Below are positions 2,030 through 41,322 of a stretch of 41,565 bases of DNA, one piece after another. The stretch is taken from the IMG/VR virus record IMGVR_UViG_3300017605_000254, positions 1 to 41,565 of that record. The stretch is one strand, 5' to 3'. Position numbers and translations under genes: made by a program. The DNA is from a virus. The notes below the pieces were generated by a model. That model saw only the letters and a program-made list of their open reading frames with translations, had not been told where the DNA came from and did not search any database. Within the stretch, counting starts at the first letter, position 1. Each line of letters opens with the position of its first letter.

Positions 2030-3247
2030 ATGGATGACAACGTCGTTCACATCGGCCGGCCGCAGGACTGGCGTGAGTTGTGCCAGAAGAACGAGAAGAA
2101 GAAGCTGCTGGCGAACCTGCACAACGCGCTGATCGCGCTGAAGCACGACCCGGCGGTGCGCGACTTCGTGGCCTACGACGAGATGTTGCGGGCACCCGTC
2201 GTCTGCCACGAGATCGGGTTGATCGACACTTGCCACCGCTGGCTCACCGACGTCGACGCGATCACGGTGACGGCCTGGATGCAGGCGAACGGCTTCCCCT
2301 CGATGGGGTTGGAGATCGTCCGCACTGCGCTGGCGAAGCGCGCGGAACAATGTTCGTTCCACCCGGTGAAGGACTACCTGCGCGCCGTGATCTGGGACGA
2401 GGTGCCGCGCATCGGCGTGTGGCTGACGCGCTATCTCGGCGCGCCGCTCAATCCCTACACGATGCACGTCGGCCGGATGTTCATGGTGCAGATGGTCGCC
2501 AGGATCGCCAGCCCCGGCTGTCAGGCCGACCATATGCTCGTGCTGGAAGGGCCTCAGGGCGTGCTCAAGAGCAGCGCCTGTCGCGTTCTCGGCGGGGAGT
2601 GGTACAGTGACCACCTCCCAGAAATAACGAACCAGCGCGAGGCTAGCCAGCATTTGCGGGGCAAGTGGCTGATCGAGGTCGCCGAGATGCACGCCATGAA
2701 CCGGGTCGAGGCGACGCACCTGAAGAGTTTCATCACGCGCACGACCGAACGCTACCGGCCCTACTGGGGCAGGAACGAGGTGATCGAGCCGCGCCAGTGC
2801 GTCTTCGTGGGGACGACGAACCAGTCGGAGTACCTGCGCGACCCGACCGGCGGGCGCAGGTTCTGGCCGGTGCCGACCGCCACGGATGCCGCCATCGATC
2901 TGGAACGGCTCGCCGAGGACCGCGATCTGCTGCTCGCCGAAGCCGTCCAGGCCTACCGCGACAACGATCAGTGGTGGCCCGACCAGCAGTTCGAACGCGA
3001 GTTCATCGCGCCGGAACAGGGACAGCGATACCAAGGCGACATCTGGGAGGACAAGATCGCCGAACACCTCGCCGGTCGATCACGCTGCACCGTCCCCGAG
3101 ATCGCCTCACAGTGCCTCGCCATCCCGTCAGGCCAAATGACCTCGGCTCACAGCCAGCGCATCGCTGCCGTCCTCCGCGAACGCGGATGGCGAGCAAGAC
3201 GCTCCAAACATGATCGGTGGTGGGAATTGTTCCCGGTGACAGGGTGA
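2030..3247 (+). CDS. VapE-like P-loop ATPase (virulence-associated E / primase-helicase family)
   Basis: The protein of about 405 residues has Walker A GPQGVLKSS (about residues 174-182), a Walker B-like WLIEVAEMHA stretch, and a sensor/arginine region VFVGTTNQSEYLRDPTGGRR. This is the standard VapE layout, an SF3-like helicase related to phage primase-helicases. The ATG at 2030 is preferred because GGGAG at 2018-2022 lies seven bases upstream; TTG 2012 and ATG 2024 are in frame but poorly spaced. It likely loads at, or unwinds, the phage origin. The stop codon lies inside the first of several GGTGAC repeats, which suggests its target site sits directly downstream. Confidence 0.88.
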   Translation: MDDNVVHIGRPQDWRELCQKNEKKKLLANLHNALIALKHDPAVRDFVAYDEMLRAPVVCHEIGLIDTCHRWLTDVDAITVTAWMQANGFPSMGLEIVRTALAKRAEQCSFHPVKDYLRAVIWDEVPRIGVWLTRYLGAPLNPYTMHVGRMFMVQMVARIASPGCQADHMLVLEGPQGVLKSSACRVLGGEWYSDHLPEITNQREASQHLRGKWLIEVAEMHAMNRVEATHLKSFITRTTERYRPYWGRNEVIEPRQCVFVGTTNQSEYLRDPTGGRRFWPVPTATDAAIDLERLAEDRDLLLAEAVQAYRDNDQWWPDQQFEREFIAPEQGQRYQGDIWEDKIAEHLAGRSRCTVPEIASQCLAIPSGQMTSAHSQRIAAVLRERGWRARRSKHDRWWELFPVTG

Positions 3248-3425
3248 CAGAGGTGACACTGCCGCTTTGATATAGAGTGTTTTAAAAAGAGAGAGAGAGA
3301 AGCTATATAGGGATTTCAGTGCCACCTCTGTCACTCCGTCACCAGCCAAAATTGCGGATGACACCAAATGACGCTGGTTTTATATGTTTGGATGGAACTC
3401 AGTGATAGGTGACAGAGGTGACACC
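3235..3425. repeat. Iteron-like GGTGAC repeat cluster around an AT/GA-rich core (candidate origin)
   Basis: GGTGAC occurs at 3235-3240, 3243-3248, 3252-3257, 3408-3413 and 3417-3422. The 17-mer GGTGACAGAGGTGACAC is repeated exactly at 3243-3259 and 3408-3424. An inverted copy at 3317-3334 matches 3244-3261 in 17 of 18 positions, with GTCACC again at 3338-3343. Between the arms lies an A/T- and GA-rich stretch (3264-3316). Iterons flanking an easily melted stretch beside a helicase gene are typical of replication origins; alternatively these are regulatory operators or a large hairpin. Confidence 0.5.
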
Positions 3426-3456
3426 GGATCGGGAAGTGTTTTAGCTTAATCATCAG

Positions 3457-3521
3457 GTTTCACATGAAACGTGCCCACGGTACGATTTGCGATTGACACA
3501 AATCCTCGACGCGCATAGTCC
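3457..3521 (+). promoter_or_regulatory. Candidate sigma70-like promoter with upstream palindrome
   Basis: A TTGACA box (3493-3498) is followed after 17 bases by TAGTCC (3516-3521), 40 bases before the start at 3561. Just upstream GTTTCA-CA-TGAAAC (3457-3470) is a 6-bp-arm dyad. GATTTG (3484-3489) and CAAATC (3499-3504) flank the -35 box as another dyad. This would be a suitable late-operon promoter. It is inferred from consensus only. Confidence 0.4.
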
Positions 3522-3560
3522 CGGTCGCAGGCTGATTTGGAACTACCCCCCGAGGCGACC

Positions 3561-3746
3561 ATGGCAAACATGAAGATCGTCAGCCTCATCGACAGCGAGC
3601 TACACCGCGCTCGCCAACAGTCCATCGCCGACCTCGAAAATGTCCAGTCGCAGATTATCGGGAAAATCAACGAAGTGATCGCAATTTGTGACGGATTGCG
3701 ACGCGATGTGGATGATTTGATGGGGGCCGGGGCACCCCGGCACTAA
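3561..3746 (+). CDS. Small coiled-coil protein, first gene of the late operon
   Basis: The 61-residue protein is preceded by GAGG at 3552-3555. It is largely one amphipathic helix (HRARQQSIADLENVQSQIIG onward) with heptad-like spacing, so it probably dimerises. It lies five bases upstream of the TerS-like gene. A role in packaging or regulation is possible from position, but no domain is recognised. An in-frame TTG at 3537 exists but has no Shine-Dalgarno sequence. Confidence 0.6.
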   Translation: MANMKIVSLIDSELHRARQQSIADLENVQSQIIGKINEVIAICDGLRRDVDDLMGAGAPRH

Positions 3747-3750
3747 ACTC

Positions 3751-4050
3751 ATGAAGATGCCTGCCGAATTACGCTCTTTGTGTCGCGGCTATACGGAACA
3801 AAGCGTGCGCTGGATGGCCGGCATCGCGCAGCACAGCGAGAGCGACAGCGCGCGCGTGGCCGCGATCACGGCGCTGTGGGAGCGCGGCTGGGGCAAAGCG
3901 CCGACGACGCACACTGGCGCGGACGGCGACGGCGACATCAAGGTCGTGATCCGGCACATCATCGAGGGGCCAAGCGGTGCGCCGCTCGCGATTGAGCACC
4001 AGACCGTCGAGCACGCTGCGGTGACACCAGATGACACCGACAGCACGTAA
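3751..4050 (+). CDS. Terminase small subunit-like protein
   Basis: The 99-residue protein contains the phrase ARVAAITALWERGWGKAP after an N-terminal helix. This is a hallmark of small proteins encoded just before alphaproteobacterial phage large terminases and often treated as TerS-like DNA-recognition subunits. The region after it (DGDGDIKVVIRHIIEGPSG) forms a short strand and tail. It lies about 430 bp before terL, an unusually wide gap for TerS and TerL. The role is inferred from motif and position; a classical TerS helix-turn-helix is not obvious. Confidence 0.6.
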   Translation: MKMPAELRSLCRGYTEQSVRWMAGIAQHSESDSARVAAITALWERGWGKAPTTHTGADGDGDIKVVIRHIIEGPSGAPLAIEHQTVEHAAVTPDDTDST

Positions 4051-4476
4051 CATCGGCTGCTGCATCAACAGCCGCAGTGTAGCGAGAAGTCGTTGCAGCG
4101 CAGGCACATCTACGCAACATGGTCTCGAGACCGACCACAAAGCTACCGTAGAATATTTGGTCGACCCCCCTGTTGTTACATCTCAGCCAACGAACGTCGG
4201 CTGTCATGTAACGCCCCATCAACTGCCTCACATGAGGCAGTTGTCGCCAAAGTCGCAGTGCGGCGTGTTCGTCCTCCGCGCTGTGGGCGTCGCTGGTGCG
4301 TCTCCTCCCCATCGGCAGGCGCACCAGCGATCGGCCCCTCCAGGCCCCCCGGTAATCCCCCGGGCTATTGCTCGTAAAGGGAACCCATCTCGCACCACCC
4401 ACATTGACGCGCCTCCCACATTTTCGGCAGCGCCTTTCGGCACTGCATCGCGATCTTCCGCACATCCGGCGGGGTT
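4051..4476. other. Palindrome-rich non-coding segment between terS-like gene and terL
   Basis: No convincing gene is seen here; the open frames are low-complexity shadows without start signals. It has four dyads: a 12-bp palindrome GGTCTCGAGACC (4121-4132); a 38-nt imperfect hairpin (4175-4212, outer arms GTTACAT/ATGTAAC and inner arms CAGCCAACG/CGTCGGCTG); a perfect 11-bp inverted repeat CAACTGCCTCA/TGAGGCAGTTG separated by CA (4220-4243); and TCGCTGGTGCG/CGCACCAGCGA (4290-4300 and 4320-4330). Candidates are a cos/pac site, an operator cluster or a structured RNA. Confidence 0.65.
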
Positions 4477-4482
4477 GTGCTG

Positions 4483-5862
4483 ATGGATGCGAGTGGGGAG
4501 ATTACGTTTCCGTCGCGTGGGTGGTTGCCGAGGAGGCACCAGCTAAAGCTGTGGACCCACCTCCAATCCGGGGGGCGGCGTGCGCTGGCAGTTTGGCATC
4601 GGCGTGCGGGGAAGGACGAGATTTGTCTGCATCATGCCTCTGTCTCGATGATGAAGCGGCGTGCGAATTACTGGCACTGTCTCCCCGAATTTCTCCAGGG
4701 TCGGAAGGCGATATGGAGTGCGATTAATCCGCACACTGGCAAGCGTCGGATTGATGAGGCATTTCCGCTGGCGATGCGGGAGAGCACGAACGACAATGAG
4801 ATGTTCATCCGGTATCGGAACGGGAGCACGTGGCAGATTATTGGCAGCGACCGTTATGATGCGACGGTGGGATCATCGGCGGCCGGCATCACGTTCAGCG
4901 AGTGGGCATTAGCGAACCCGAGTGCGTGGGGTTATTTCAGGCCGATGCTGGAGGAGAATGCGGGCTGGGCGGCATTTATCACGACGCCGCGCGGGCGGAA
5001 CCATGCGCATGCGATGTTCAAGCATGCGGAGGTCTCGCCGGCGTGGTTTTGCGAGCGGTTGACGGCGCATGACACGGGGGCGTTGACCGGCACGCAGTTG
5101 GAAGAAGCTCTTGCCGAGTATCAGGCGCTTTATGGCGAGGACGTCGGGACGGCGCAATTCAACCAGGAGTATCTGTGCGACTGGAATGCTGCGATTCTGG
5201 GTGCGTTTTACGCGATGGAGTGCGCCAGGATACGCAACGAGGGGCGCATCATTGAAATAGAGCACCTCCCTGACCAGCCTGTTCACCGGGCCTGGGATTT
5301 GGGGGTGAAGGACGACACGAGCATTTGGTGGTATCAGGCCGTTGGCAGCCAGTTATTCATTCTCGACCACATTGCGCAGAGCGGTGTTGGAGTGGAGTGG
5401 TTTCGCGACGAGATTGCGCGTCGGAAGGTGCAGCATGGCTGGCGTGACGGCGACGATTATGTCCCGCACGATGCGAAGATCAAGGAATGGGGCAGTGGGC
5501 GGACGCGGATTGAGACGATGCAGGCGCTTGGGCTCAATCCTGTGCTGGTGCCGAATGCGTCTTTGGAGGACGGGCGGAACGCGGTTCGCAGAACCCTTCC
5601 GCTGTGTGTATTTCATCCGCGGACGGAGATTGGGGGGTTGGATGCTCTCGAACAATATCGGCGCGAATGGGACGACGAGAAGAAGTCGTTCCGCGCGTCG
5701 GCGGTTCATGACTGGACCTCGCATCCGGCGGATGCGTTTCGGTATTTGGCGCTCAGTTGGCGACGTGCGCCGGCGCGCCCGGTTAAGCATCATCCGGCGT
5801 TACCTTCCGGTTGGGTGATTCCGCCGCCGCGGGAGCATGTGCGGTCGGGGATTGAGTTATGA
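4483..5862 (+). CDS. terL: Terminase large subunit (TerL)
   Basis: The packaging motor is about 459 residues long. The N-terminal ATPase has the deviant Walker A WHRRAGKDE (about residues 38-46) and Walker B-like GITFSEWA. The C-terminal RNase H-like nuclease starts with RAWDLGVKDDT (D272) and includes PHDAKIKEWGSG and a late HPADAFRYLA. It drives DNA into the prohead with the portal and cuts concatemers. GTG 4477 is an alternative start two codons upstream; ATG 4483 is favoured because the G-rich GGCGGGG lies about eight bases before it. Its stop overlaps the next gene by four bases. Confidence 0.93.
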   Translation: MDASGEITFPSRGWLPRRHQLKLWTHLQSGGRRALAVWHRRAGKDEICLHHASVSMMKRRANYWHCLPEFLQGRKAIWSAINPHTGKRRIDEAFPLAMRESTNDNEMFIRYRNGSTWQIIGSDRYDATVGSSAAGITFSEWALANPSAWGYFRPMLEENAGWAAFITTPRGRNHAHAMFKHAEVSPAWFCERLTAHDTGALTGTQLEEALAEYQALYGEDVGTAQFNQEYLCDWNAAILGAFYAMECARIRNEGRIIEIEHLPDQPVHRAWDLGVKDDTSIWWYQAVGSQLFILDHIAQSGVGVEWFRDEIARRKVQHGWRDGDDYVPHDAKIKEWGSGRTRIETMQALGLNPVLVPNASLEDGRNAVRRTLPLCVFHPRTEIGGLDALEQYRREWDDEKKSFRASAVHDWTSHPADAFRYLALSWRRAPARPVKHHPALPSGWVIPPPREHVRSGIEL

Positions 5863-6116
5863 GTTTCACGCTTGCGGACGCGGACGAGTTTGTGCGCCGG
5901 CAGGATTTGCGCCGGGTGGAGGCTGCTTTGCACGCCTACGCCGAGCGTGAGCGGCGCAAGGTGTGGCAGGCGAGTGCCGCGTATCGGTCGATGATGCAGC
6001 GGCTGAACCAGCCGCCGGAATGGATCGGTGCCGCCACTCGTGCGGCCGAGCAGCGGGACATCGAGCAGAACATCGAGCGGAGTTGGGTGCGTTCCGGCTT
6101 CTGGAGGGCACCGTGA
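5859..6116 (+). CDS. Hypothetical protein between terL and portal
   Basis: The 85-residue basic, helical protein (FVRRQDLRRVEAALHAYAE onward) begins with an ATGA overlap of the terL stop. It ends in a GTGA overlap with the next gene, so it is almost certainly translated. No domain is recognised. Its place between terminase and portal is compatible with a packaging accessory, but this is only positional. Confidence 0.6.
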   Translation: MSFTLADADEFVRRQDLRRVEAALHAYAERERRKVWQASAAYRSMMQRLNQPPEWIGAATRAAEQRDIEQNIERSWVRSGFWRAP

Positions 6117-6319
6117 TCAAGCCGCAGGAGTTGCGCGATCACGCGACCGACGCGCACAAGCGCGGCTGTGCGGGGCGCACCTACGAATGCACCTGCGACT
6201 ACGACAAGATCACGGAGCGGCTGCTGCGCGCTGCGGCGAAGCGGATCGAGGAACTGGGGGCGACGACGCGCGGCTATCGCGAGCGCGCGGCGCTGAACAG
6301 AGAGAAACCTGATGCCTAG
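6113..6319 (+). CDS. Hypothetical 68-residue protein with cysteine pair
   Basis: It starts with GTG overlapping the previous stop (GTGA), preceded by GGAGGG at about 6103. It contains GCAGRTYECTCDYDKI, with three closely spaced cysteines resembling a small metal-binding knuckle, then a helix (LLRAAAKRIEELG). Similar short CxC...YDKI proteins occur in other alphaproteobacterial phages without a known role. It overlaps the next gene by eight bases. Confidence 0.6.
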   Translation: MIKPQELRDHATDAHKRGCAGRTYECTCDYDKITERLLRAAAKRIEELGATTRGYRERAALNREKPDA

Positions 6320-6653
6320 GCGCACGGTCATCGGCGAGGGCAAGAAGCTTCCGCTGAACATGCGGACGACGGCGGGATTGCGGGCGAAGATCAACAAGGC
6401 GGCCGGCAAGTCGGGCCGCAGTCTGGTGCAGGAGGTGGAGTATCGGGTGGAGGAGAGTTTCCACCGGGAGCAGTACAGCCGCTTGCATGACGATGTATTG
6501 AGGGTCAAAAGCAGTGTTTTAACGATTGAGCGGAGGAGTTGGGAGCACGGCGAAAATCTGAAGCGGATTTGGCTTTATCTATCCTTGCTGCGCGAGGGAT
6601 CGCCGATCCCGCCCGAACTGGAGTTGGCCGAGCGGGAGTTGGTCGATGGCTAA
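6312..6653 (+). CDS. Arc-like ribbon-helix-helix protein
   Basis: Residues about 12-50 (KLPLNMRTTAGLRAKINKAA through GRSLVQEVEYRVEESF) match the Arc/TraY ribbon-helix-helix pattern: a basic strand, two helices and the SGRSL turn. A helical C-terminal extension of about 60 residues follows. Such proteins bind DNA as dimers and usually repress transcription. It sits directly before the portal gene and overlaps it by eight bases, so it may tune late expression. Its operator is unknown; the dyads upstream of terL are candidates. Confidence 0.7.
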   Translation: MPRRTVIGEGKKLPLNMRTTAGLRAKINKAAGKSGRSLVQEVEYRVEESFHREQYSRLHDDVLRVKSSVLTIERRSWEHGENLKRIWLYLSLLREGSPIPPELELAERELVDG

Positions 6654-37354: not shown

Positions 37355-37532
37355 GCGACGGCGCTCCTCTCCTGTTGCGGTGTCGGCTCAGCCAGCGACT
37401 GGCGACGTCGTCGCGCCAGATGATCAACTTGCCGGCATGGATCATCGGCTCAGGTAAACGCCCCTGCTCGACCCATCGCAGCACCGTGCGCTTCGACACG
37501 CCGATGCGCTCGGCGAGTTGATCAAGTGTCAT
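37212..37532 (-). CDS. HTH_17/MerR-like DNA-binding protein
   Basis: The N-terminal 50 residues, MTLDQLAERIGVSKRTVLRW, then GRLPEPMIHAGKLIIWRDDV and ASRWLS, are a clear HTH_17 excisionase-like domain. The remaining 55 residues are basic and lie on top of the next gene in another frame. The last part looks like a chance extension, so the essential protein may end near residue 52. It likely acts as a small regulator or Xis. Confidence 0.65.
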   Translation of the reverse strand: MTLDQLAERIGVSKRTVLRWVEQGRLPEPMIHAGKLIIWRDDVASRWLSRHRNRRGAPSHAAPERLPRTADKGLERVAQRIGKARAQRNRNRDRAHDVLRRDKGRS

Positions 37533-38370
37533 CCTTCGCGGCCTTCAGTTCCTCGATCCGGCGCGTCACCATTTCCTTCAGACGGGCGGGTTGCTCGCGA
37601 TCGTGCCACTCGACGTTGCCGCGCATGGCGCGCTCGGCGTTCCACTTCATCGTTAGCTCGTCGGCCGAGACCGCGTTTGCCATGGTGACTTGCCACTGCA
37701 ACGCGTAGGCGTCGCCGGATGTGGCCGGCGGCAAATCCGACACGGGTGTCGGTTCTGGTTTGGGCGGGTCGTAGCCACCCGGCACACCCGGTGTGTGCTC
37801 CTGGCGCTCGGCCTCGTTCTTCACCTCGGTCGGCGTCACGTCGATGACCGGCTGCTCGCCTTCGAACAGCAGGCCCATCAGTATCTCGGGCGTGTGGCGG
37901 CGGCCCCAGATGCGCGCCCCCGCGTAGGCGAGTTGCTGCTCGGGCTGCGTCGTCCAGACCTTGTTGGCGGTCTTCACCTGATCGATGTGGACCGAGACGA
38001 TGCGCTTGGTGGTCTCATCGGTGAGGCGACCGCTCACGACCACAGCCTTGGCGTTGCCGTCCTCGTCGTAGTCGTATTCGTAGTTCAGCCGCTCGGCGAG
38101 ATAGCCGCTCGTGTTGAGCAGCGCCGCGGTCAGCTTGCCGCTGAAGAACAATCGTCCCGACACGACGGACACCTCCCCGATGACCATCAGGAAATCGAGG
38201 TTGCGGTTGCGGCAGAACGACATGACCAGCCAGCAATCGGCGGGCGACTTCTGGAAGTGCGGCGGGATCAGCCGCGCCATTGCGAGCCGCTCGGCGAGTT
38301 TCATCAAATCCATCGGGTCGCTCGGCAGCGCGATCGCGGTGCCGACACTGGGCCGGGTCTGGTCGTTCAT
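37522..38370 (-). CDS. recT: RecT-family single-strand annealing protein
   Basis: The 282-residue protein has the RecT core: AERLAMARLIPPHFQKSPAD, CRNRNLDFLMVIGEVSVVSG, FSGKLTAALLNTSGYLAERL and YAGARIWGRRHTPEILMGLL, followed by a Pro/Glu-rich linker and a C-terminal helical region. It pairs complementary single strands during phage recombination. No RecE-type exonuclease adjoins it; the VRR-NUC and other nuclease-like genes lie at the left end of the window. It overlaps the next gene by 11 bases. Confidence 0.85.
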   Translation of the reverse strand: MNDQTRPSVGTAIALPSDPMDLMKLAERLAMARLIPPHFQKSPADCWLVMSFCRNRNLDFLMVIGEVSVVSGRLFFSGKLTAALLNTSGYLAERLNYEYDYDEDGNAKAVVVSGRLTDETTKRIVSVHIDQVKTANKVWTTQPEQQLAYAGARIWGRRHTPEILMGLLFEGEQPVIDVTPTEVKNEAERQEHTPGVPGGYDPPKPEPTPVSDLPPATSGDAYALQWQVTMANAVSADELTMKWNAERAMRGNVEWHDREQPARLKEMVTRRIEELKAAKDDT

Positions 38371-39492: not shown

Positions 39493-40139
39493 TTATGTCC
39501 CTCCATTTTGGATACTTCCAGCACGTCGAACCAGTTGCGCGCGGTACGGATCAGCGCGGCGAGGTCGCGGATTTGCTGATGCTTCATGCCGCGGTGTACG
39601 GCGGCGAGGTCGACGCCATCAAACTGGCGCACCATCACCTGCAAGGTGTCGATCATCTTCTCGGCCCAGAGGTGCGGCTCGATCGGCGGGCGCGCTTCCG
39701 GTTCCGACAGCGTGACTGTCGGCGTCGCGTGTTTATTCGGCCGTTCGCGGCGGCTCTTGCGGGCGACGATCAAGTCCAGGGCGGTAAGCGTCGGCTTGAT
39801 CCGCCCCTGCGCGAGCCAGCGTTCCAATTCGGCATCATCGAAGTGGCATAGCTCGTAGACGGTCGTCCAAGCGGTCGGCAAAACGTGCCGAATGGAACGA
39901 TTTGCCAGGAACGTCTTCGCGGCAATCGTCATCAGTTTGCGCGCGGTGCCGACGCCGAACGGCAGCCGGCGGCGGATCATGTCCTCGAAGTCGCCGTGGG
40001 GCAGGGCGGCCTTCGCGTCGAGCATGGCCTGTCCGGTATCGAAGACGGCATCCAACCCCTTGGCCCAGCGGTTGTGGATGGTCTCGGTCCATGCGCTGAC
40101 CGACTTCTGCGTGTCGAACTGCACGACGGAACCCATCAT
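39489..40139 (-). CDS. DUF3102-like DNA-binding phage protein
   Basis: The 216-residue protein has the DUF3102-like pattern: TGQAMLDAKAALPHGDFEDM, then RRRLPFGVGTARKLMTIAAK, a helix-turn-helix-like stretch often found in phage and plasmid early genes. The C-terminus is helical and ends in DVLEVSKMEGHK. It overlaps the next stop by four bases. Its partner is probably the neighbouring DGQHR-like or Gp157 protein. Confidence 0.75.
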   Translation of the reverse strand: MMGSVVQFDTQKSVSAWTETIHNRWAKGLDAVFDTGQAMLDAKAALPHGDFEDMIRRRLPFGVGTARKLMTIAAKTFLANRSIRHVLPTAWTTVYELCHFDDAELERWLAQGRIKPTLTALDLIVARKSRRERPNKHATPTVTLSEPEARPPIEPHLWAEKMIDTLQVMVRQFDGVDLAAVHRGMKHQQIRDLAALIRTARNWFDVLEVSKMEGHK

Positions 40140-40642
40140 TTGACCCTCATTGCGAGCACTGGCTCGGCGTTCGATAGCTCGGCACCGGGGACCGGCTGAC
40201 CATCGGCGAATGCCTGCTTGATCGCGACCCTGTCGGGTTCGCGGCGGACGCGGATGAACTGGGGCGGCAGCATCTCCTCATCGATCACGATGACCTTCGG
40301 GGTGCCGGCGCGGATCGAGAGCGTGGCGGCCGGCAGTTCGATCTTCCGCACGCCGGCTTGCTCCATCATCTTGTAAGCGAGGGCGCGCAGCGCCTCGATG
40401 CGGCGTTCGAAGTTGTCGGAGCGCAGCCTCATGTCGGCGAGCACAGCCTTGAGGCCGCGCACCTGCGCGTCCGCCATCAGCATCTGGGTGACGGTGGCGG
40501 CGAGAAACTCGTTGAGGCTGGTCTGCCCCTCCAGCGCGTCGAGCCGGAACACCTCGTCGTCGCTGTCGAAGATTTCGGGGTGCTGCCGCTTCAGCAACTC
40601 GATCTCGTGATGCAGATAGGCGGGATCGAGTGCGCGCGTCAT
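40136..40642 (-). CDS. Gp157 family protein
   Basis: The 168-residue protein is Gp157-like: a helical N-terminal half (MTRALDPAYLHHEIELLKRQ through LADMRLRSDNFERRIEALRA) and a beta C-terminal half TLSIRAGTPKVIVIDEEMLP with a closing IKQAFADGQPVPGAELSNAE. AAGGTGAG seven bases upstream supports ATG 40642. It is the first gene of the leftward operon. Gp157 proteins are associated with phage DNA replication or protection in Siphoviridae; the mechanism is unclear. Confidence 0.85.
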   Translation of the reverse strand: MTRALDPAYLHHEIELLKRQHPEIFDSDDEVFRLDALEGQTSLNEFLAATVTQMLMADAQVRGLKAVLADMRLRSDNFERRIEALRALAYKMMEQAGVRKIELPAATLSIRAGTPKVIVIDEEMLPPQFIRVRREPDRVAIKQAFADGQPVPGAELSNAEPVLAMRVK

Positions 40643-41322
40643 TGCGCTCACCTTTGTGCTGTATGGTGAGATGCTTTATTGGTTTGGACGCTGAACTCAG
40701 GGTCGCAGAGCGTGACCGGTCACCCACCGGGTGCCGGGTGGTTGATGACAGTAGGACCACTGGGGAAAAACTGTCCCCGCCTATTTGGTCTTTCGACCTG
40801 TTATATTCGGCGGGCCGCCCGACATAAGGGAAGCCCAGTGGTCCTGGTAGTTCCGCTGCCGATGACCATCACGACACCGACAACGAGCGCACTATGCGCC
40901 ATCTCACCAATCATGAAAACGGGGGAATCGTTGCAGCATGCTCTGCGAAGGACGCTGTGACGGTGGGGCACCCGATTGTGGCTGCGACCGGATTGACAGT
41001 GCCGTATTGCGTCGTGCAACCGGCCTAATCCATTGTGCCGCAAGGGCTGAAACCGCCACCTCACACCCCATGAAATGTGGCAGTGCGGTTACAACTGTAA
41101 ACGGTAGCCCGCTAGCGATTTCCGATATGTGCCTGCGGCGCAGCCACATCTTTATGTCAGGCTCAGTGACCATTTGTCTAGATATTAACAGTTGAAAATA
41201 TTTTTCGGCTGTGCTGGCGAAGTGATGGAACGCTGTGTTTGCGGGCGTTTTCTCACATCCCCTGAATTTGACAGTGCCGCATTCAGCCCCACTGTGGGGT
41301 GCCATCGCAGGAGAGCATCCCG
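40643..41322. promoter_or_regulatory. Divergent control region between leftward operon and Cro-like gene
   Basis: No convincing gene is seen; one frame at 40894-41028 (44 codons) has no clear ribosome-binding site. The region holds GTGACCGGTCAC (12-bp palindrome, 40712-40723), the 12-bp inverted repeat AGGACCACTGGG (40753-40764)/CCCAGTGGTCCT (40834-40845), and two near-identical 16-mers TTGACAGTGCCG[TC]ATT (40993-41008, 41268-41283). CCCCAC-T-GTGGGG (41287-41299) is a palindrome in the Cro leader. TTGTCT (41174-41179), 17-base spacer and AATATT (41197-41202) form a candidate + strand promoter. This is likely the lysis-lysogeny switch region. Confidence 0.6.

Follow-up and report, generated by a model that had tools for sequence, protein, structure and literature searches.

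The spacer between the terminase genes

What does the dyad-rich stretch between the small and large terminase genes of this phage do? A preliminary description of the locus offered three possibilities: a packaging initiation site of the cos or pac type, an RNA regulator of terL, and a binding array for an Arc-like protein. The window, i.e., the whole stretch of DNA analyzed, comprises 41,565 bp. It is a virus record with no end repeat, judged by gene content (tyrosine integrase, portal of PHROG 12082, and capsid of PHROG 9953) to be a temperate podovirus. The phages of this group are uncultured soil phages known mostly as metagenome contigs. At the left edge of the window lies a fragment resembling phosphoadenosine phosphosulfate reductase (6 to 725) that matches the profile from residue 188, which suggests that the record is cut there. 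Toward the other end, a RecT-like annealing protein (37522 to 38370) and a Mu Gam-like end-protection protein (40136 to 40651) are both encoded on the minus strand.

On the plus strand, a terS-like gene for 99 amino acids (3751 to 4050) is followed by terL (4477 to 5862; PHROG 2, E = 3.7e-17). The spacer between them (4051 to 4476) measures 426 bp, in agreement with the ~430 bp estimated earlier. The gap had also been called exceptional among tightly overlapped operons; it is indeed bare and structured, but exceptional only in a relative sense, since the distance from terS to terL among relatives ranges from −23 (a 23-bp overlap) to +2391 bp (~2.4 kb). The junction is therefore a variable site.

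The small protein was assigned as TerS, which we infer from its constant position and from a profile match to phage PaP3. Scanning IMG/VR for terL gave 80 loci, 74 of which have a homolog beside terL. A profile of 41 TerS homologs matches the oligomerization core (residues 72 to 112) of 6W7T (E = 0.005), identified as the PaP3 small terminase (PMC7672466); because an unrelated viral protein scored better in the same search (E = 0.0004), the match is modest. The terS-like protein has no Pfam match, and no HTH was recognized in its 99 residues. Its AlphaFold model, with two main helices, is of middling confidence (pLDDT of 72, pTM of 0.43), and no PDB fold matched the model better than E = 3.8.

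A 150–amino acid open reading frame (4031 to 4483) spans the gap and touches both terS and terL, and an open frame of similar layout is present in relatives L001 to L003, L005 to L007, and L051, where indels between sister phages are few or frame-keeping. A small translated gene overlapping both terminase genes is nevertheless highly improbable. The G+C content of the frame is flat across codon positions (0.62/0.62/0.59), without a clear third-position excess, compared to the clear third-position enrichment of terS (0.64/0.54/0.83), terL (0.62/0.49/0.71), and the portal gene. Substitutions in the gap between sister phages fall nearly evenly across positions, with no clear codon pattern. Amino acid identity between sisters is only slightly above that of random placement, and in more than one frame, i.e., a constraint little beyond chance; the control, terL of L007 and L051, gave 0.97 versus 0.73 (terS and terL of L001 and L002 were misaligned and left out as controls). 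The frame is also interrupted in L004, L009, and L161. Because codon-position G+C is flat and the substitutions have no clear codon pattern, we take the gap to be noncoding.

Dyads and folding of the spacer

The 12-bp palindrome described earlier is found as GGTCTCGAGACC (4121 to 4132). It is followed by an imperfect hairpin with a 2-nt loop (4175 to 4212), by the predicted perfect 11-bp dyad with a 2-nt spacer (4220 to 4243), and, ~20 bp before the conserved core considered below, by a strong hairpin (4290 to 4330; 14-nt arms at 93%) that contains the 11 perfect pairs reported for a dyad with a 19-nt loop. The hairpin at 4175 to 4212 had been credited with 16 of 18 pairs, whereas its arms form 15 of 18 Watson-Crick pairs; the sixteenth is a G-T wobble that appears only when the minus strand is folded. 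The first three dyads are specific to the window, the 12-bp palindrome having no matching sequence among relatives. The 5′ arm of the strong hairpin, CTGGTGCG, also occurs in L001 to L004 and L009.

Folding of the spacer was compared with that of dinucleotide-shuffled sequence, as the preliminary description had proposed. The z score was −6.32 for 4051 to 4476 (0 of 100 shuffles folded as well) and −7.34 for the originally flagged part, 4121 to 4330 (0 of 200). With a second shuffle set, the z score of the gap was −5.07; coding segments of 400 nt taken from the window ranged from −3.8 to +1.6. An exact-dyad search (arms of ≥9, loop of up to 45) placed in the gap 2 of the 21 dyad clusters of the whole 41.6 kb.

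Among the closest relatives, the z scores of the corresponding gaps range from −4.7 to +1.4. Values below −3 were obtained for L009, L007, L003, and L051, while the gaps of L001 (+1.4) and L002 (−1.2), from the same clade, are unstructured. A blastn search of relatives and annotated phages found no copy of the window's gap. Since the gap has no copy elsewhere and the folding of relatives' gaps differs widely, the palindromes are not the conserved part of the locus. The compensatory changes sought in relatives were not found, the stems having no homologs there to covary. By sequence comparison, the hairpins of the window are lineage-specific.

A conserved core downstream of terS

Alignment of the gaps of the closest relatives revealed a G+C-rich core of ~40 bp, GGTAATCCCCCGGGCTATTGCTCGTAAAGGGAACCCATC, which occupies positions 4351 to 4389 on the plus strand of the window, within a core region of 4347 to 4393, just outside the flagged interval 4121 to 4330. 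In all, 24 phages have a related core 3′ of terS. A first sequence model found the core in 10 of the 51 records searched, exclusively in the terS-terL gap except for an end overlap in record G006; the core was also detected in L161. In a second clade, a related motif, GGGTGGGGTGGTCTCCGGGGGGTATGTCGGGGTTGAAT...GGTACCGGTACCGGTTA, lies just 3′ of terS, and the gaps carry accessory genes. The core was further found in L214 and L216, which represent a third lineage.

The core of the window is hit by the models with E = 2e-10 and 3.2e-7, values obtained with the window in both training sets; when the window was left out of model building, the core ranks first in the 41.6 kb (E = 0.001). When each profile excluded the phage tested and its listed near copies, the core was the top hit in its own locus in 23 of 26 tests, including that of the window. 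In near-complete records, significant hits occur once per genome and in the terS-terL gap. The exceptions are a repeat in G006, which is the end overlap, and a weak hit away from terL in G033 (E = 0.005). The core shows two properties expected of a pac or cos site, placement in the terminase module and conservation among relatives.

On the terL tree, core carriers cluster (3 changes versus 10.4 expected, a count made before the second clade was recognized), and the ten records of the first model together with L161 fall into two neighboring clades. The TerL profile of the core clade matches the TerL structures 4znj and 4zni. Sequence models place the core 3′ of terS in two neighboring clades and one further lineage. 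In L008 and L010, a core-like sequence can be seen by eye, yet no model detects it, so we count these loci as unproven carriers. No core was detectable in third-clade phages whose TerS is about equally similar (L074, L053, and L046).

GTDB genomes contain 37 distant terL relatives, and those that were searched yielded no core. Additional matches to the core pattern in IMG/VR were judged to be due to chance: L140 is unrelated, and seven others have no terS or terL homologs in the stretch examined. Matches of a second-clade core to Klebsiella phages at a genome end are weak (E = 0.3) and probably also chance. Just after the core, L001 to L004 carry a near-perfect Shine-Dalgarno–like sequence, GGAGGTGATC/GGAGGTAATC, after which no start codon is obvious.

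No structure is seen in the core itself (mean z score of +0.37 over 24 phages). Folding is stronger in the 78 nt that precede it than in control windows (8 of 24 below −2, compared to 7%; P = 0.008), and the stems formed there are unrelated in sequence among the 24 phages. L009 and L161 have in common an island of ~170 bp comprising two dyads, the core, and AGAGCGGGAGGTTGCG, while the rest of their gaps is unrelated. A shared core with differing dyads would fit a DNA site whose dyads are exchangeable more readily than it would fit a conserved RNA. A leader or noncoding RNA controlling terL, as the preliminary description envisaged, would account for the strong folding of the window (z score of −7.3) and of the four relatives' gaps below −3. 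The unstructured gaps of L001 and L002, the unstructured core, hairpins without homologs, the absence of any Rfam match to the gap at gathering thresholds, and the minus-strand genes that lie between core and terL in some relatives make such an RNA quite improbable.

The Arc-like protein does not fare better. Its gene is located at 6312 to 6653 of the window, between terL and the portal gene, and among the flanks of relatives only those of L008 and L010 yielded it, the very loci where no model detects the core. Core-bearing relatives whose searched flanks gave no Arc-like gene beside terL contradict the proposed binding array.

An IHF-like site next to the core

In 10 of 13 phages (the second clade and L214), an exact 13-bp IHF consensus, WATCAANNNNTTR, is located 45 to 130 bp upstream of the core; the remaining 3 have it with one mismatch. 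The exact match was present in 0 of 399 random windows. The order in the second clade is terS, IHF-consensus site, core, accessory genes, and terL. The IHF-consensus site is absent from the window and from the detected cores of its clade. IHF acts at the cos site of phage lambda.

An extended IHF-like motif occurs in 20 copies in 837 kb and in none in the reversed sequence. Sixteen copies lie just 3′ of terS, including those of L013, L016, L045, and L048, near copies in which cores were detected as well, and that of L010, which is in the inverse orientation. In L054, L061, and L070, the extended motif sits at a distance from terL, in intergenic regions rich in repeats.

These distant copies, together with the highly variable terS-terL spacing and cargo, would be compatible with a replication origin or recombination site, in which the IHF-like site, the dyads, and the G+C-rich core serve replication or exchange. 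We consider this improbable: the core is linked to terS, and the window has a separate candidate for an iteron-type replication origin, GGTGACA repeats (3235 to 3424) around an A+T-rich stretch after a vapE-like gene. Between these repeats and terS lies a palindrome, GTTTCACATGAAAC (3457 to 3470), that closely resembles a bacterial parS site. Seven relatives have its 12-bp center upstream of terS as well.

In second-clade relatives L047, L055, L049, L024, and L043, accessory open reading frames on both strands separate the core from terL; examples are a polysaccharide-lyase–like gene (L055) and one encoding DUF7694 (L049). Such an arrangement fits a genome end or a module boundary.

A putative packaging site

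We favor, with moderate confidence, the reading of the spacer as a cis-acting DNA site of the terS-terL module and a putative packaging initiation site, pac- or cos-like. Of the options in the preliminary description, this is the best supported one, through the core at 4347 to 4393 and not through the palindromes of the flagged interval. Terminase would recognize concatemeric phage DNA at the spacer and make the first cut there. It may assemble on the upstream part, where IHF bending or DNA hairpins would help in some lineages; the cut would fall within the G+C-rich core or close to it, with packaging then proceeding into terL. A more speculative proposal, which we rate as rather doubtful, is that the start site is read by a minimal, HTH-less TerS, with lineages swapping the aid (an IHF site in one clade, strong hairpins in another) while keeping the core, and with recognition relying on DNA shape and on reading by TerL instead of on sequence contacts made by TerS.

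Several points speak against a packaging site: third-clade phages with a similarly related TerS have no detectable core, the window has no IHF-consensus site, the placement differs from the usual cos position upstream of terS and from that of P22 pac inside terS, and a conserved motif beside terS could serve transcription instead. In this main rival, which is unlikely though a real possibility, the hairpins would end transcription coming from the replication and terS side, and the core would be a late promoter or regulator site for the operon running from terL to the tail genes. The site does lie between replication and morphogenesis genes, the GGTACC/GGGAACCC dyads in the core resemble an operator, promoters also use IHF, and in third-clade phages terS is preceded by a terminator-like hairpin with a T-rich stretch after it. 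However, the region from 3200 to 6000 has no site resembling an intrinsic terminator, the only promoter-like match upstream of the core is weak (9 of 12), and the core is unlike −35/−10 boxes. Moreover, terS keeps its upstream place, whereas terL can be separated from the core by minus-strand genes.

A long conserved hairpin, AGGGCGCGTAtTGTCCG...CGCGCCCT, is located 69 to 388 bp upstream of terS in L030, L057, L060, L077, L021, L011, L061, and others, in most of them with a T-rich stretch after it. Its stems differ between phages with pairing kept, and it may be a terminator or a terS-linked element.

If the spacer is a packaging site, later cuts could be made at the same site (cos) or by a headful mechanism (pac), and we slightly favor the latter. 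PhageTerm assigned headful packaging to phage Mx9, which has a related TerL and capsid; no HNH gene was found in the 15 records searched; and near-complete records continue through the core. The pointers to cos are the PaP3-like TerS match, the genome-end–like cargo, and the G006 overlap on the core. In this near-complete record, identical 69-bp ends (L098/L099) cover the core and the 3′ arm of the hairpin; since overlaps of arbitrary length are also seen at ends that lie within genes (e.g., 57 bp in G043), the position of the overlap may be due to chance. At least six near-full-length records (G000, G003, G009, G015, G031, and G054) run through the core and have their ends at other positions, which leaves fixed ends unsupported. 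Overall, the choice between pac and cos is not settled by the contig ends.

Comparison with known packaging systems

PaP3, a LUZ24-like podophage, resembles the present system in its TerS oligomerization core and in having a terS-linked DNA site. It produces a 20-base 5′ overhang and has a larger TerS with an HTH (PMC3488191, PMC7672466), unlike the 99–amino acid TerS of the window, in which no HTH is recognized. The PaP3 20-base cos sequence was not found in the core of the window (longest common word of 6, which is background level); a 9-base word in L002 only is within the background tail.

The second-clade arrangement, with an IHF-consensus site and a G+C-rich core beside terS, is similar to lambda cos (cosQ-cosN-cosB). 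Lambda cos lies upstream of terS, whereas the present core is downstream of it and the window has no IHF site. An upstream position is usual for the cos sites of isolated phages (PMC4802629). With headful phages such as P22, SPP1, and the relative Mx9, the locus shares the linkage of the site to terS. In P22, the 22-bp pac sequence lies within terS (PMC9611059), while the present site is intergenic and accompanied by dyads. The TerL of Mx9 is 38% identical, its capsid is related, and headful packaging was assigned to it by PhageTerm (PMC10281127). A cos-like site beside the terminase genes is also a feature of HK97-type systems; an HNH domain or endonuclease gene was found in 0 of 15 records, window included, which argues against an HK97-type cos system.

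Few phages have a known packaging site, and sequence alone seldom reveals one. The terminase-linked sites described here form a family whose members align among some two dozen soil phages not yet cultured. The family offers a core that can be mutated, and it includes one clade with an IHF-type partner site, another in which hairpins have been swapped, and a hotspot for cargo genes between core and terL. It thus allows a concrete test of how a very small TerS chooses DNA and helps to define genome ends in a group seen mostly as metagenome contigs.
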